Shown here piece after piece: positions 1-5,455 of a stretch of DNA of 5,455 nt. Within the stretch, counting starts at the first letter, position 1, and each line of letters begins with the position of its first letter. The DNA comes from Candidatus Margulisiibacteriota bacterium. Lineage in GTDB: Bacteria > Margulisbacteria > Marinamargulisbacteria > DT-59. Under the pieces are notes generated by a model, which saw nothing but the letters and a program-made list of their open reading frames with translations, did not search any database and was not told the DNA's origin. The stretch spans positions 1 to 5,455 of the forward strand of contig JABSQL010000028.1 in assembly GCA_013215865.1 (NCBI GenBank), written 5' to 3'. The position numbers and the translations under genes were made by a program.

Positions 1-1389
1 AAAGCCCTTACTAACAATGAGGTATATCGTTTCGCCAATTTCGATTTTCCCATTGGGTGTAGGATGCTGTAAAACAACCTGCCCCCTTTGATATTTATGA
101 GAATATATAGCGGACTCTATCTCCAGTTTAAGCTCTTTTTGATCTAAAATAATTTGAGATTGTGATAGATTTCTCCCTAAAAGATTGGGAATCAATGTTT
201 CAGCAGACCCTTTGGATACAAAAAGGCGTATGACTCTATTCTGTTTCACCTCGCGCCCAGGAGGCGGTTTAACTTCCATAATATATCCTTCAGGCATATA
301 TGGTGTGGGTCTAGTACCTGCTACAATGCTTTTCAAGCCCATTTTGTCCAACTCGTTTTTTGCTTCTTCTACAGATATACCCAATATATTTGGTACCTGT
401 TTTAACGGAATTTCTGTGATATAGCTCATATAGAAATGATAAGTAGCAGATAATATTATACCCATGAAAATGATGGCTGTACCCACTTTAATACCGGATA
501 GAATGCCATGAAATTTTTGTTTTCTGAGATCTTTTTTAAGAGATTTAGATACATGATCACTTTGAATGATGCCCACTAAATCATCGTCAATGTCTGTTTG
601 ACCAACGTATTGTTGATGTAATTCCAAAATTGATGAAAATCGCTTATGAGGATCCTTGGCCATAGCACGAAATATGACTTTTTCTAGCCTTTGTGACATG
701 TTAGAATCATATTTTCGAGGAAGACATGGATCTTTCAAAAGATATTTTTTCTGTTGATTAATATAAGAAGTGTACGGATAAGGCCATGATAAGGTATGTA
801 AAAAATACATGAGCACGCCTAAGCTGTATTGATCCAAGTGAGTACACTGGTGATGCTGCAAAAATTCTGGGGAATAAAAAATACATCCTTCAATTGCATC
901 AAATGCGGTTATATTTTCTGTCAATACCATCAAAGGAATGTGTATGCCAACAAGCTTTACATGTTTTTCTCGGGTTAAAAATATTTGGGTGAGGTTTATT
1001 GCCCCAGATACAATGTTGCTGCTCTCTAATAATTGAAGCACATTCATCAGTTGCGTTGTGATCGTAATAATATCTACATTTTCTAAAGACTCTTTATTTG
1101 AAACATAGGATTCTAAAGAAAGAAGTGTGTGATCAAAATGGTAGATCAAAAACAGGTTTTTTCCATCAAAATGGTGATCCGTTAACGTTAATATATGGGG
1201 ATGTTTAAGGTCATGTAGACGATGGGCCTCTTTTAGAATATTTTTTACCAGATGTTGGGGTAAGTATTCTTTTTTTAGCTTAAGAACCATCACTTGCGAA
1301 TTCTTAGTTTGGTCTTCAGCCAAATATGTATGATATAGAAGTCCATCAGAAATAAGCTGTTTCAGCTTATACTTACGCTTTATGAGCAT
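1..1389 (-). CDS. PASTA-domain membrane pseudokinase (Stk/PknB-like, catalytically degenerate), C-terminus outside window
   Basis: The reading frame is open for 463 codons from ATG at 1389 to the left edge. Residues about 7-260 follow the Hanks-type Ser/Thr kinase fold: Lys37 (MVLKL), alpha-C Glu54 (LKEAHRL), SPE at 173-175, DQYSLG at 186-191, and Arg250 (DPHKRF). A charged juxtamembrane stretch (264-297), one transmembrane helix (about 300-322) and two PASTA repeats (about 330-394 and 398-462) follow; more repeats may lie beyond the edge. In this family PASTA domains bind muropeptides or lipid II outside the cell, while the kinase faces the cytoplasm. Here the catalytic residues are gone: HRDLKPSN aligns with SGAINLTQ (128-135), DFG with GIH (148-150), and no GxGxxG loop is visible. 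Phosphotransfer is therefore unlikely; a sensor or scaffold role is inferred. It is the last visible gene of the eno operon, 7 bases after the S1 gene, with no clear Shine-Dalgarno, suggesting translational coupling. Confidence 0.88.
   Translation of the reverse strand, partial: MLIKRKYKLKQLISDGLLYHTYLAEDQTKNSQVMVLKLKKEYLPQHLVKNILKEAHRLHDLKHPHILTLTDHHFDGKNLFLIYHFDHTLLSLESYVSNKESLENVDIITITTQLMNVLQLLESSNIVSGAINLTQIFLTREKHVKLVGIHIPLMVLTENITAFDAIEGCIFYSPEFLQHHQCTHLDQYSLGVLMYFLHTLSWPYPYTSYINQQKKYLLKDPCLPRKYDSNMSQRLEKVIFRAMAKDPHKRFSSILELHQQYVGQTDIDDDLVGIIQSDHVSKSLKKDLRKQKFHGILSGIKVGTAIIFMGIILSATYHFYMSYITEIPLKQVPNILGISVEEAKNELDKMGLKSIVAGTRPTPYMPEGYIMEVKPPPGREVKQNRVIRLFVSKGSAETLIPNLLGRNLSQSQIILDQKELKLEIESAIYSHKYQRGQVVLQHPTPNGKIEIGETIYLIVSKGF
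4..198 (-). other. PASTA domain 2 of the pseudokinase
   Basis: Residues about 398-462 repeat the pattern: IPNLLGR, a SQSQIIL helix, a central strand, RGQVVLQHP, and the closing strand IYLIVSKG. It is more divergent than repeat 1; PNG replaces the PPPG turn. The repeat ends at the window edge and the frame stays open, so a third repeat could follow. Confidence 0.8.
208..402 (-). other. PASTA domain 1 of the pseudokinase
   Basis: Residues about 330-394 fit the PASTA pattern: VPN followed by GIS, an EEAKNEL helix, a GLK turn, PEGYI, a PPPG motif and a final FVSKG strand. PASTA repeats form the extracellular part of penicillin-binding-protein and Ser/Thr-kinase receptors. The repeat starts about 8 residues after the transmembrane helix, so it would lie close to the outer face of the membrane. 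Confidence 0.85.
430..498 (-). other. Transmembrane helix of the pseudokinase
   Basis: Residues about 298-320 (from SGIKVGTAIIF through ILSATYHF) form the only long hydrophobic segment of the protein. It is preceded by the basic run SKSLKKDLRKQK, consistent with a positive-inside orientation. This puts the kinase-like domain in the cytoplasm and the PASTA repeats outside. Confidence 0.8.
1352..1370 (-). repeat. Inverted repeat (hairpin) at the start of the pseudokinase gene
   Basis: The mRNA strand reads ATAAGCTG-AAA-CAGCTTAT, a perfect 8-base stem with a 3-base loop, at +20 to +38 from the A of the start codon. It lies inside the coding sequence, in a gene that has no evident Shine-Dalgarno. 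It could affect ribosome loading, be a cleavage site that separates the last gene from the rest of the operon mRNA, or be chance. Confidence 0.4.
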
Positions 1390-1396
1390 AATAGTA

Positions 1397-1852
1397 CTAT
1401 GTTTTGCGTTTTTTATTGGCGATACCCTGTTTAACTTTCAGATTTCTTCGGATATCAATTTGTTTTTCTTCAGATCGTTTTAAAAAACTATTCAACTTAT
1501 TTTCAAACACCTCATCTTTTGATCTAGATTGAATGAAAAGGGGGTCTTTTTTTTGCTTGTCTTCTGTTCGCTTCTTTGAAAGCTCTAGTTTTCCTTGCTT
1601 ATTGCGCCCCATGATTTTCACTTTTACTCTGTCACCAACACTCACATACTTTGTGATATCAGTAACATATTCATTAGCGACTTCAGATATATGTACAAGA
1701 CCTTCTTCACCATTTTGAAGCTTAACAAAAGCACCAAAAGAAGTAATATTAGACACATCACCCTCAACAATATCCCCTGGATTTAAAGAAACGGGTTTTT
1801 CAGGTTCTTTATCGGGTTCGATTTTCTTTTCTTGATCTTCAGAATTTGACAA
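1397..1852 (-). CDS. S1 RNA-binding domain protein (YabR/GSP13-type)
   Basis: A 151-residue protein with one S1 (OB-fold) RNA-binding domain at about residues 23-95. Visible S1 signatures are PGDIVEGDV, then SFGAFVKL, GLVHISEVAN, VGDRVKVKI and KLELSKK. The N-terminal 20 residues are charged and rich in Glu, Lys and Pro. The C-terminal tail (about 114-151) has FENKLNSFLKRSEEKQ, then RRNLK and a basic end (KKRKT). From memory, this tail resembles that of clostridial S1 proteins encoded beside divIC. The start is TTG at 1852, backed by GGAG nine bases upstream; no ATG fits as well. Small S1 proteins of this type (YabR, GSP13/YugI, CvfD) associate with RNA or ribosomes and act in post-transcriptional regulation; the exact target here is unknown. 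It lies 15 bases after ftsB and 7 before the pseudokinase, in one operon. Confidence 0.88.
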   Translation of the reverse strand: MSNSEDQEKKIEPDKEPEKPVSLNPGDIVEGDVSNITSFGAFVKLQNGEEGLVHISEVANEYVTDITKYVSVGDRVKVKIMGRNKQGKLELSKKRTEDKQKKDPLFIQSRSKDEVFENKLNSFLKRSEEKQIDIRRNLKVKQGIANKKRKT

Positions 1853-1867: not shown

Positions 1868-2152
1868 TTATTCGATAGACACTATAAACTTATACACAAC
1901 TTCACCAGAATAAACATAATTCAATCTTTTTCTTGCATGGAACTCCCAAAAAGGGGTGGTTTTCATTTCCTCAACCTTTTGCCTGTAATCATCATGCTTC
2001 AATGTTTCAAATCTATATTCATCCATTAGGCTATTATACTCAACACGATACCTATTATATCTAAAAATATTCTTAATTCCAATACAAAAAACATAAACGA
2101 TTAAAATAGCCCCTATAAAGACACATACAAACCGCTTCGAAAAAAAAGTCAT
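1868..2152 (-). CDS. ftsB: FtsB/DivIC-family septum formation initiator
   Basis: A 94-residue single-pass membrane protein. It has a short basic N-terminus (SKR), a transmembrane helix at about residues 8-26, a heptad-like coiled-coil stretch at about 32-62, and the family's C-terminal signature ARKRLNYVYSGEVVYKF at 73-89. FtsB/DivIC pairs with FtsL through this coiled coil and joins FtsQ/DivIB in the divisome, where the complex activates septal peptidoglycan synthesis. The length fits FtsB (about 100 residues) better than the longer DivIC of Bacillus, but the two are homologous and the name is a matter of convention. It starts 6 bases after the eno stop with only a weak GGA, so translation is probably coupled. 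The eno-ftsB order is the same as in many gammaproteobacteria. Confidence 0.85.
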   Translation of the reverse strand: MTFFSKRFVCVFIGAILIVYVFCIGIKNIFRYNRYRVEYNSLMDEYRFETLKHDDYRQKVEEMKTTPFWEFHARKRLNYVYSGEVVYKFIVSIE

Positions 2153-2158
2153 TTTCCG

Positions 2159-3504
<1,346 letters not shown>

Positions 3505-3556: not shown

Positions 3557-3586
3557 TTGATTTTTCGCTGCCTTTTGTTCTATGAT
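3557..3586 (+). promoter_or_regulatory. Putative sigma70-type promoter of aroH-tyrA, leaderless
   Basis: TTGATT (3557-3562) is followed after 18 bases by TATGAT (3581-3586, 5 of 6 matches). Seven bases after the -10 comes ATG 3594, so the predicted transcription start is the A of the start codon or next to it. No Shine-Dalgarno is seen before aroH, which agrees with a leaderless transcript. The -35 element lies back to back with the eno -35, with 17 bases between them, so the two promoters could influence each other. Confidence 0.5.
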
Positions 3587-3593
3587 ATTGGCC

Positions 3594-3965
3594 ATGTATA
3601 TTCGAGGAATCAGAGGCGCAACAACCGTAAATCATAATCAAGAGTCAGATATCTTGCAGGAAACCAAAGTTCTTTTAGAGACGATTATAAGAAAAAACAA
3701 TCTTCAGATCGATGATATTGCATCCATCTTTTTTTCTGTTACTCAGGACTTAGATGCGGCATTCCCCGCAAAAGCAGCACGGGATCTGGGGCTAACCACC
3801 ACGCCTCTACTTTGTTTAAGAGAAATACCGGTTAAGCTAAGTCTAAATAAATGCATCCGTGTATTGCTACATGTAAATACGGCTAAAAAACAAATAGACA
3901 TGACACATGTTTATCTCAATGAAGCTGCCAATCTCAGACCTGATCATGCGGCTGGCTCTTTATGA
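3594..3965 (+). CDS. aroH: Chorismate mutase, monofunctional AroH class
   Basis: A 123-residue AroH-fold chorismate mutase (trimeric pseudo-alpha/beta barrel, unlike the all-helical AroQ class). It rearranges chorismate to prephenate, the branch point to tyrosine and phenylalanine. Compared with the B. subtilis enzyme as I recall it, the active-site residues are all present: Arg7 (RGIRGATTV), Phe57, Lys60 and Arg63 (AAFPAKAARDLG), Cys74, Glu77, Arg89 (CIRVLLHVNT), Tyr107 (HVYL) and Arg115 (LRPD). With the start at ATG 3594, Arg7, Phe57, Lys60 and Arg63 take the same numbers as in B. subtilis, so this start is preferred over the in-frame ATG at 3582, which adds MILA and overlaps the promoter -10. 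No Shine-Dalgarno is visible at either ATG. The stop overlaps the tyrA start as ATGA. No feedback domain is present. Confidence 0.95.
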   Translation: MYIRGIRGATTVNHNQESDILQETKVLLETIIRKNNLQIDDIASIFFSVTQDLDAAFPAKAARDLGLTTTPLLCLREIPVKLSLNKCIRVLLHVNTAKKQIDMTHVYLNEAANLRPDHAAGSL

Positions 3966-4807
3966 CGCTCCCTCCTTTTCAACATATTGGGGTCATAGGG
4001 CTGGGTGTTATGGGTGGGTCACTCGCTAAACTCATTAGAGAAAAATATCCTGATATACCCGTATTTGGATTTGATCAAAGCCCAACAGTTATTAAAAATG
4101 CAAAAAAAAGTGTGATTACGTCGGGAACCACATCAGAAATAGATATCCCATCAGATCTAGATCTGGTATTTATTTGTACCCCCATTTCAGAGATACAACA
4201 CTTTATAAATACAGTATCAAAACGTGTGGTTGGCCCATGTATCATAACGGATATTGGTAGTGTTAAAGCACCTTTTTCTGATATGACGCTTCCCAATCCA
4301 AATCACGCTTACATACCTGGACATCCTATGGCAGGGTGTGAAAAACAGGGGTTTGATCATTCCCAGGCACAATTACTAGAAAAAGCGCTTTATGTGATAA
4401 TAGATACCCCTTTCTCACAGGCAGAAAAACTTTCTGGTTTTTTATCTTCTCTATCATTTAAAGTGATGACCATGTCAGCAAAAGAGCATGATGAATGGGT
4501 GGCATTATCCTCTCATTTACCTTATCTAATGGCACAACTCATGGTTTCAGCTACCCTTGGGTATCCGATAGACGCCCACATTCAGCACTTATTTGGAAGT
4601 GGGTTCAAAGATACCACTCGTGTGGCTTCCTCTTCCGTAGAATGGGGAACAGACGTATGTCTGCACAATCAAGAGCCATTATTAAAAGGGCTCAAAAATG
4701 TTCAGTCACATCTTGAAAATCTCATTACGATTTTGGAAAATAAAGACCGGCATTCCCTTCATCAGTTCCTCTTAAAAAATCACGATCAAAGAGAAAATAT
4801 AATTTAA
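3962..4807 (+). CDS. tyrA: Prephenate (or arogenate) dehydrogenase
   Basis: A 281-residue cytoplasmic TyrA-family dehydrogenase that oxidatively decarboxylates prephenate to 4-hydroxyphenylpyruvate, the last committed step to tyrosine. The N-terminal Rossmann domain shows GLGVMG (13-18), with Asp38 (VFGFDQS) at the end of the second strand, which favours NAD over NADP. Catalytic and substrate residues are visible: Ser100 (DIGSVK), His121 (GHPMAG), His185 (SHLPY) and Arg220 (FKDTTRVAS). Many relatives have SHLPH where this protein has SHLPY. The length fits the bare catalytic protein: there is no fused chorismate mutase and no C-terminal ACT domain, so tyrosine feedback through ACT is not expected. 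The ATG overlaps the aroH stop by four bases and has no clear Shine-Dalgarno, so translation is probably coupled. Arogenate specificity cannot be excluded by eye. Confidence 0.94.
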   Translation: MTLPPFQHIGVIGLGVMGGSLAKLIREKYPDIPVFGFDQSPTVIKNAKKSVITSGTTSEIDIPSDLDLVFICTPISEIQHFINTVSKRVVGPCIITDIGSVKAPFSDMTLPNPNHAYIPGHPMAGCEKQGFDHSQAQLLEKALYVIIDTPFSQAEKLSGFLSSLSFKVMTMSAKEHDEWVALSSHLPYLMAQLMVSATLGYPIDAHIQHLFGSGFKDTTRVASSSVEWGTDVCLHNQEPLLKGLKNVQSHLENLITILENKDRHSLHQFLLKNHDQRENII

Positions 4808-5455
4808 TCTTGTTTCTTTCTTATTTCTAGAATTGACAAAAGGGTATTCCGAGATGAATCACTTATCCACTTTTTTGGAATATTTTTAGCATCTTCTATC
4901 GCTTCATCAGGGTTTGTCTCAACTTTGTAAAATAAGGACAATAGTTGAGATTCAAATGAACCATCAAATGTAAATTCTGGCTTCTTCACATCAAATGTCT
5001 CAACTATATTTTGAGGTTGCGTGTAGGGAAGTGCCAAAGAAAATCCTGACGGGTAGATCATGTTTAAGTCATCCAATTTGTCTGGAGAATCTATATAACC
5101 CTCACCCACAAGGTCCATCAGAAAAAGGCTTGAAATGAAGGTGTCATGCCTGTCATGGGGTTCTAATTTGAGGGTGTTATTTCCCGACGCAATAGATTCT
5201 GAAAACGTTTTGAGATAAAATCGGTTTTCCTGTGTATAAAATGCGACTAAGTATATATCGTAGCCACGCTTAATGGCTTTGCTGGTTCCTTCCCAGGTAT
5301 ACATTTCAGGCCCTCTTTTAAAAGATAAAAAGGACTCTCTATATTCTGATTTTTTAATACGAAGTTCGTCTTTATTGAAAGAAGACGATTCAAAAACTGT
5401 GAGGGGGTTGGCTGTCGATACCACTTCGTTTGAAGTAGACTTAATAAGGGTGGTT
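4804..5455 (-). CDS. Protein of unknown function, N-terminus outside window
   Basis: I do not recognise this protein. The frame is open from the right edge to TAA at 4806-4804, 216 visible residues. A GTG at 5424 is a possible start, but it has no Shine-Dalgarno and the frame stays open upstream to the edge, so the gene most likely begins outside. The visible part has no hydrophobic helix long enough for a membrane span. It looks like a soluble mixed alpha/beta domain: alternating strand-like stretches (YDIYLVAFYT, NRFYLKTF, SGFSLALPY), an acidic patch (DSPDKLDDLN), and a helical C-terminus (DEAIEDAKNIPKKW, then NTLLSILEIRKK). Aromatic residues are frequent in the central part. It converges on tyrA and shares four bases with it (TTAA), so it belongs to a different transcription unit. 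Confidence 0.75.
   Translation of the reverse strand, partial: TTLIKSTSNEVVSTANPLTVFESSSFNKDELRIKKSEYRESFLSFKRGPEMYTWEGTSKAIKRGYDIYLVAFYTQENRFYLKTFSESIASGNNTLKLEPHDRHDTFISSLFLMDLVGEGYIDSPDKLDDLNMIYPSGFSLALPYTQPQNIVETFDVKKPEFTFDGSFESQLLSLFYKVETNPDEAIEDAKNIPKKWISDSSRNTLLSILEIRKKQD

Follow-up and report, generated by a model that had tools for sequence, protein, structure and literature searches.

The window analyzed here, a stretch of 5,455 nucleotides, is the complete contig C201 of a 2.2-Mb draft genome in 495 contigs (completeness 78.5%) from the class Ca. Marinamargulisbacteria of the phylum Ca. Margulisiibacteriota, placed in the Cyanobacteriota/Melainabacteria group. Its minus strand, which carries all features of this and the next two paragraphs, harbors at 1..1389 the gene of a PASTA pseudokinase, 463 codons long from an ATG at 1389, with the 3' end truncated by the contig end. 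PASTA receptors are assumed to work by converting wall signals into phosphorylation. The encoded protein begins with a kinase-like domain of about amino acids (aa) 1-265 (595..1389), for which the original prediction, at 940..1389, had given too short a segment. There follow a predicted transmembrane helix at about aa 299-321 (427..495; hydropathy maximum at aa 295-313, model helix 278-325), PASTA domain 1 (aa 331-393; 211..399), and PASTA domain 2 (7..192). The earlier description of the PASTA part as intact holds for these two domains, but the rest lies beyond the contig end; the proteins of relatives extend past PASTA into a C-terminal beta domain.

Pfam matches to PK_Tyr_Ser-Thr (E 4.5e-17) and PASTA (E 5.9e-22) indicate that the kinase-like and PASTA homology of the predicted protein is not due to chance. 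The product is predicted to be a single-pass membrane receptor, and both of its halves were shown to be homologous to PrkC/PknB/Stk1. Against NCBIfam NF033483, with an equivalog cut-off of 450 bits, the truncated gene product scored 175.1 bits, and none of the 74 phylum genomes studied reached that cut-off. The predicted structure of the kinase-like domain is a kinase fold with a predicted local distance difference test (pLDDT) score of 94.6, and its best solved matches are S. aureus Stk1 and PknA.

The active site of this fold is lost. In an ungapped stretch of the alignment to StkP, SGAINLTQ (aa 128-135; 985..1008) and GIH (aa 148-150; 940..948) face HRDLKPQN and DFG, so that Gly129 occupies the position of the HRD Arg and Ala130 that of the HRD Asp. 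This assignment had been made in the original prediction and is borne out by the alignment as well as by a direct, alignment-independent reading of residues 107-163, which contain no Asp. Therefore, this segment offers no displaced Asp that could serve in catalysis or metal binding, and catalytic residues at shifted places were ruled out. The glycine-rich loop is gone, as predicted, and its position reads SDGLLY (aa 14-19; 1333..1350). Lys37 had been counted among the surviving markers, but this was off by one: in the alignments to StkP and to the family, the beta3 position is Leu36 (1282..1284) and Lys37 comes one residue later, meaning that the ATP-binding Lys is also lost. The nucleotide and metal ligand positions are thus Leu36, Gln135, and Gly148. 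A kinase fold is regarded as a pseudokinase when at least one of the beta3 Lys, HRD Asp, and DFG Asp is missing, and all three are missing here. The other markers named earlier, SPE of the APE motif (aa 173-175; 865..873), DQYSLG (186-191), and Arg250, are all present; Glu54 is in register as well, but the window protein is the sole copy of the 55 compared below that keeps it.

Distribution and conservation of the pseudokinase receptor

PASTA domains were searched for in the 74 phylum genomes, 27 of which belong to the class, and all 64 PASTA places were inspected. They occur in 64 of the 74 genomes, including 34/34 of high quality, at one place per genome. No second PASTA locus was present in any of the 64 PASTA-bearing genomes, and the candidate of an active PASTA paralogue was rejected, none being found there. 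The 64 places comprise 55 readable kinase-like domains, one domain truncated at a contig end (G060, left out of the 55 because its catalytic loop lies beyond the contig), one remnant (G008), six PASTA-only genes (G028, G037, G034, G040, G043, and G049), and one PASTA fragment at a contig end (G046). The HRD Asp is missing in all 55 readable domains, being replaced by Ala (26), Gly (7), Ser (6), Glu (4), Asn (4), His (3), Gln (2), Thr (2), or Cys (1), and the HRD Arg position holds Gly (48), Ala (6), or Ser (1). Other positions are retained, namely the APE Glu (55, Glu175 of the window protein), the alphaF Asp (54), and the C-lobe Arg (55). Relatives with intact motifs would have pointed to decay in this strain only; no readable copy of the locus has an intact HRD, and G057 keeps DFG.

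Within the class, 21 of the 27 genomes have a kinase-like domain fused to PASTA, and the HRD Asp is missing in all 21 copies. G008 possesses PASTA and a kinase half reduced to a short remnant without a recognizable C-lobe (L119:8009-9169), and the five genomes with neither part are all at most 76% complete. In 28 genomes of the phylum, G060 not being counted, the receptor is split, with the kinase-like and PASTA proteins encoded by two adjacent genes (for example, L121:7429-9162 and L122:4716-6454). At its end, the split-type kinase-like protein seems to have a membrane helix of its own, and the separate PASTA protein has a hydrophobic N-terminal segment. All 28 split copies have the beta3 Lys and the DFG Asp, and most read HG[AG]LKPxN and DFV. 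Many named split-type copies have been deposited as 'serine/threonine protein kinase', an annotation that is corrected here. The PASTA-only genes are located at L127:8372-9241, L128:6551-7399, L132:6859-7698, L133:6959-7984, L134:7197-8048, and L159:1334-2197, and the ectodomains of five of the six align along their length with those of pseudokinase receptors.

Protein searches extend this pattern. Among the best 120 of 1782 homologues of the split type, some of which are the same proteins as in the phylum count, 120/120 have no HRD Asp (115 by pattern, 5 by eye). Among other PASTA proteins (the best 120 of 971 plus 26 from another search, a control that omits P0001 and P0028-P0054), the Asp is retained in 140/146. 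Of the six exceptions, P0175, P0176, P0023, and P0003 belong to the pseudokinase family, the stretch is missing in P0019, and P0002 is a fragment.

The original prediction of a maintained pseudokinase rather than decay is strongly supported by the uniform lack of the HRD Asp and by the ratios of nonsynonymous to synonymous substitution rates (dN/dS, Nei-Gojobori) in five close pairs. For the kinase-like part, these are 0.047, 0.041, 0.053, 0.100, and 0.161 (range 0.04-0.16) and, in the same order, 0.095, 0.113, 0.200, 0.106, and 0.299 for the rest of the gene; the values are rough, as the synonymous rate (dS) is near 1 in 4/5 pairs. In three of the four fused pairs, the kinase-like part lies below the transmembrane-PASTA part, with a tie in the fourth (0.100 versus 0.106). 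In the split pair (0.053 versus 0.200), the rest is the tail only and does not include PASTA. A sixth pair, G012/G017, was saturated and is outside the range, its ratios of nonsynonymous to synonymous proportions (pN/pS) being 0.361 for the domain and 0.424 for the rest. Purifying selection on the predicted kinase-like domain is thereby shown in close pairs.

In a tree of 86 domains, all 57 pseudokinases form one clade with a support of 100/98, and the clade was recovered at 99/96 after removal of the glycine loop, beta3, alphaC, HRD, and DFG columns. The simplest reading of these sequences would be a single loss before the phylum radiation, although catalysis may also have been lost repeatedly within the clade. 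Two further fused PASTA pseudokinases, P0023 (HGT..) and P0176 (HGS..), are found at the clade base and beside G031, respectively, and could show how far the family reaches beyond the phylum.

The pseudokinase gene of the window belongs to a string on the same strand, in which enolase (2159..3433, the first gene), a DivIC-type septum formation initiator (1868..2152), and an S1 domain protein (YabR/GSP13-like, 1397..1852) precede it with gaps of 6 to 15 bases. The gene order in G007 of the same class equals that of the window. Across the class loci, enolase is located within a few genes upstream in 17/21, and the DivIC cluster is present in 13/21. Downstream, 19 of 20 loci (the window and its contig end excluded) carry a gene of one cluster, of which the tested copy is a deaminase that we take to be RibD. 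In relatives from the phylum, the genes found after the locus include varying combinations of RsgA, Rpe, and the deaminase, and RsgA and Rpe are also neighbors of PrkC in Bacillus. The phosphatase profile NF033484 matches 27/74 phylum and 6/27 class genomes, all below its cut-off, with an occurrence elsewhere in the genomes too variable to speak for or against a loss of the cognate phosphatase, and none of the listed matches is at the PASTA locus, as judged by contig.

In 10 of the 21 class loci, an exported-looking, diverged gene (about 320 aa; one called at 206 aa) is situated directly upstream of the pseudokinase, for example, at L102:8309-9271 (minus strand), L104:7300-8259, L109:7341-8336, and L103:9721-10713, among others. 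Of five copies tested, three gave matches to the BamB-like PQQ_2 propeller family, and the gene is absent in the window. Its product could partner the PASTA part on the outside.

Proposed mechanism and competing explanations

Given the loss of the residues needed for phosphorylation, the receptor likely signals by partner binding and not as an enzyme. As judged from sequence and predicted structure, we consider it probable that it is a nonenzymatic membrane PASTA receptor that dimerizes and docks partners without phosphotransfer. The PASTA domains would bind cell-wall material, the ligand being, by analogy to PASTA kinases generally, a muropeptide or lipid II. The signal might be relayed by back-to-back N-lobe dimerization of the kinase-fold half. 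Such dimerization is suggested because an Asp that figures in PknB dimer work is highly conserved while the ATP-site positions have drifted: Asp71 of the window protein (1177..1179, minus strand), the equivalent of PknB Asp76 (mutated as D76A in PDB 3orm), is Asp in 51/55 copies. The dead fold would then dock partner proteins at the membrane without phosphotransfer. It may act at the division site, as most of the class has the gene within a string of enolase, DivIC, and S1. As to its history, the balance tips slightly toward a phylum ancestor in which catalysis was lost once and the dead fold was kept for dimerizing and docking, with descendants that split the genes or dropped ATP binding or the kinase half, leaving PASTA sensing without phosphorylation.

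Several observations weigh against this interpretation. In part of the phylum, the beta3 Lys (30/55), the catalytic-loop Asn (40/55), and the DFG Asp (29/55) are retained, making nucleotide binding possible there, and the split-type copy of G057 has a complete DFG. The Asp at the PknB D76 position is also found in the active reference and is common in active kinases, which makes it weak evidence for dimerization, and the position of PknB L33, also mutated in the dimer work, is not conserved (T/G/S in 40/55). PknB R10 is a further residue that we take to have a role in the dimer. In G001, G002, and G023, the gene has no adjacent enolase-DivIC, which in G023 is located elsewhere on the contig, so that a link to division does not hold in every genome. 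In the tree, long-branch warnings apply to G023 and G025, and after removal of the motif columns, the active groups do not each fall on one side of a branch. Lastly, two families, f19 and f23, to which the six PASTA-only genomes belong, live without the kinase domain.

The dead receptor might instead be an allosteric regulator, whose N-lobe would pair with an active paralogue to switch it on or off, as the original prediction had suggested in part. The retained N-lobe Asp is compatible with this, and other Pkinase matches exist in most class genomes, many of them with intact motifs, such as the C125 kinase of the window's own genome (HADVKPAN, DFG). Among 31 class kinase loci scanned, a subset of the matches, 18 had HxD..N and a DFG-like motif, 7 were the pseudokinase gene, and 6 had no pattern. 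However, this explanation is weakened because the pseudokinase gene is the sole Pkinase match (E 0.001) in 5 of the 21 class genomes, G003 (94% complete), G013, G016, G017, and G025. Together with the lack of a second PASTA locus and with paralogue open frames that range from <200 to >1900 aa, and hence varied architecture, this makes it an unlikely one. The other earlier suggestion, a receptor that would signal by binding, fits the data.

Other chemistry is a very unlikely explanation, by which the domain would bind nucleotide and catalyze a different reaction, in the manner of SelO (AMPylation) or SidJ. It could draw on the beta3 Lys and DFG Asp of the split copies and on SelO, which has Hgvmntdn where HRDxxxxN is expected (Table 1 of PMC12599244), but the window protein has none of the nucleotide or metal ligands, and Trp occupies the beta3 position in 12 of the 55 copies, all of them Marinamargulis. 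That the kinase fold is a passenger on its way out, with only the membrane anchor and PASTA mattering, appears similarly improbable. The six f19/f23 genomes are PASTA-only at the same locus, the family profile has zero matches genome-wide in G028, G037, G034, and G043 (97-99% complete) and finds one kinase elsewhere in the genome in G040 and G049, and G008 retains only its remnant. This view is strained by the selection data, in which the kinase-like part evolves below or about equal to the transmembrane-PASTA part in fused pairs and below the tail in the split pair, and by the persistence of stop-free kinase-like domains in 55 genomes. Finally, the window is a draft contig with the gene truncated at its end, but an assembly artefact or recent decay in one strain is extremely unlikely and was rejected, as 20 further genomes of the class carry the gene with the same losses, most of them with an unchanged gene order, and the HRD Asp is missing throughout the phylum.

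Relation to known receptors and pseudokinases

The pseudokinase family proposed to act by binding shares the kinase fold, membrane helix, PASTA ectodomain, and C-terminal beta domain with PrkC/PknB/StkP/Stk1, which provide the closest solved folds for both halves; the ectodomain of a relative matches 3py9. It differs from them in that the catalytic Asp, beta3 Lys, DFG, and glycine loop are all missing from the window protein and in that part of the phylum has a two-gene receptor or no kinase half.

The mycobacterial MviN/MurJ pseudokinase (ActPs3) shares a tie to peptidoglycan control, and a back-to-back N-lobe dimer has been described for it (PMC12599244). It is located within MviN and is phosphorylated by PknB, whereas the domain studied here is the cytoplasmic half of a PASTA receptor itself. 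Instead of the ActPs3 motifs VALT / Lsidhpsr / Y--, the window protein reads VMVL / SGAINLTQ / GIH, and the Pfam scan revealed no MviN domain. The MviN structure 3uqc is not among the structural matches listed for the domain, which excludes nothing. EssB/YukC differs in being part of a secretion apparatus, whereas the genes next to the receptor in the window encode S1, DivIC, and enolase (secretion genes were not searched for more widely), and EssB/YukC is not known to have PASTA domains. This component of type VIIb secretion is a membrane-bound pseudokinase that has lost all motifs, dimerizes, and recruits partners (PMC12599244).

ActPs1-3, GLW, DLHK, CP1, and DYD are likewise conserved bacterial pseudokinase families (PMC12599244) and differ in their motifs from the Margulisiibacteriota family with HG[AGS] or xGxxN. 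GLW occurs at the HRD place in 0/55 copies, the window reading SGA, and in contrast to the DLHK family, in which the HRD Asp is kept and a membrane helix is absent, the window protein has lost the Asp and has a predicted helix. In that review of seven bacterial pseudokinase families, PASTA appears only in a reference title (PMC12599244). Among the papers listed in searches of the open-access literature, there was none on a PASTA pseudokinase of Ca. Margulisiibacteriota. PASTA kinases and bacterial pseudokinases are known, and what is apparently new, in that it did not appear among these listed papers, is a dead-kinase PASTA receptor as the sole PASTA receptor of a phylum.

The phylum offers a graded series, in which active-site remnants are kept, ATP ligands are lost, the receptor is encoded by two genes, or the kinase half is gone, and which represents a natural experiment to tell the part of PASTA signaling that depends on catalysis. 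The dead receptor of this phylum bears on pneumococcal work in which kinase-dead StkP was reportedly rescued by a phosphomimetic juxtamembrane segment and GpsB was found to bind inactive StkP (PMC12077195, PMC3983041).

Further genes of the window and its genome

In the genome of the window, contig C409 (L001) encodes a giant multidomain protein that combines a kinase-like domain (HKEILPEN, no DFG) with an ATPase-like part, and this predicted domain also looks catalytically degraded. Within the window, a 216-aa open frame at 4804-5454 (minus strand) reaches the contig end and matches nothing in Pfam or NCBIfam at E 0.001. The plus strand carries, at 3582-4807, the genes of an AroH-type chorismate mutase and a prephenate dehydrogenase, which overlap by 4 bases and form a tight two-gene unit pointing away from enolase.
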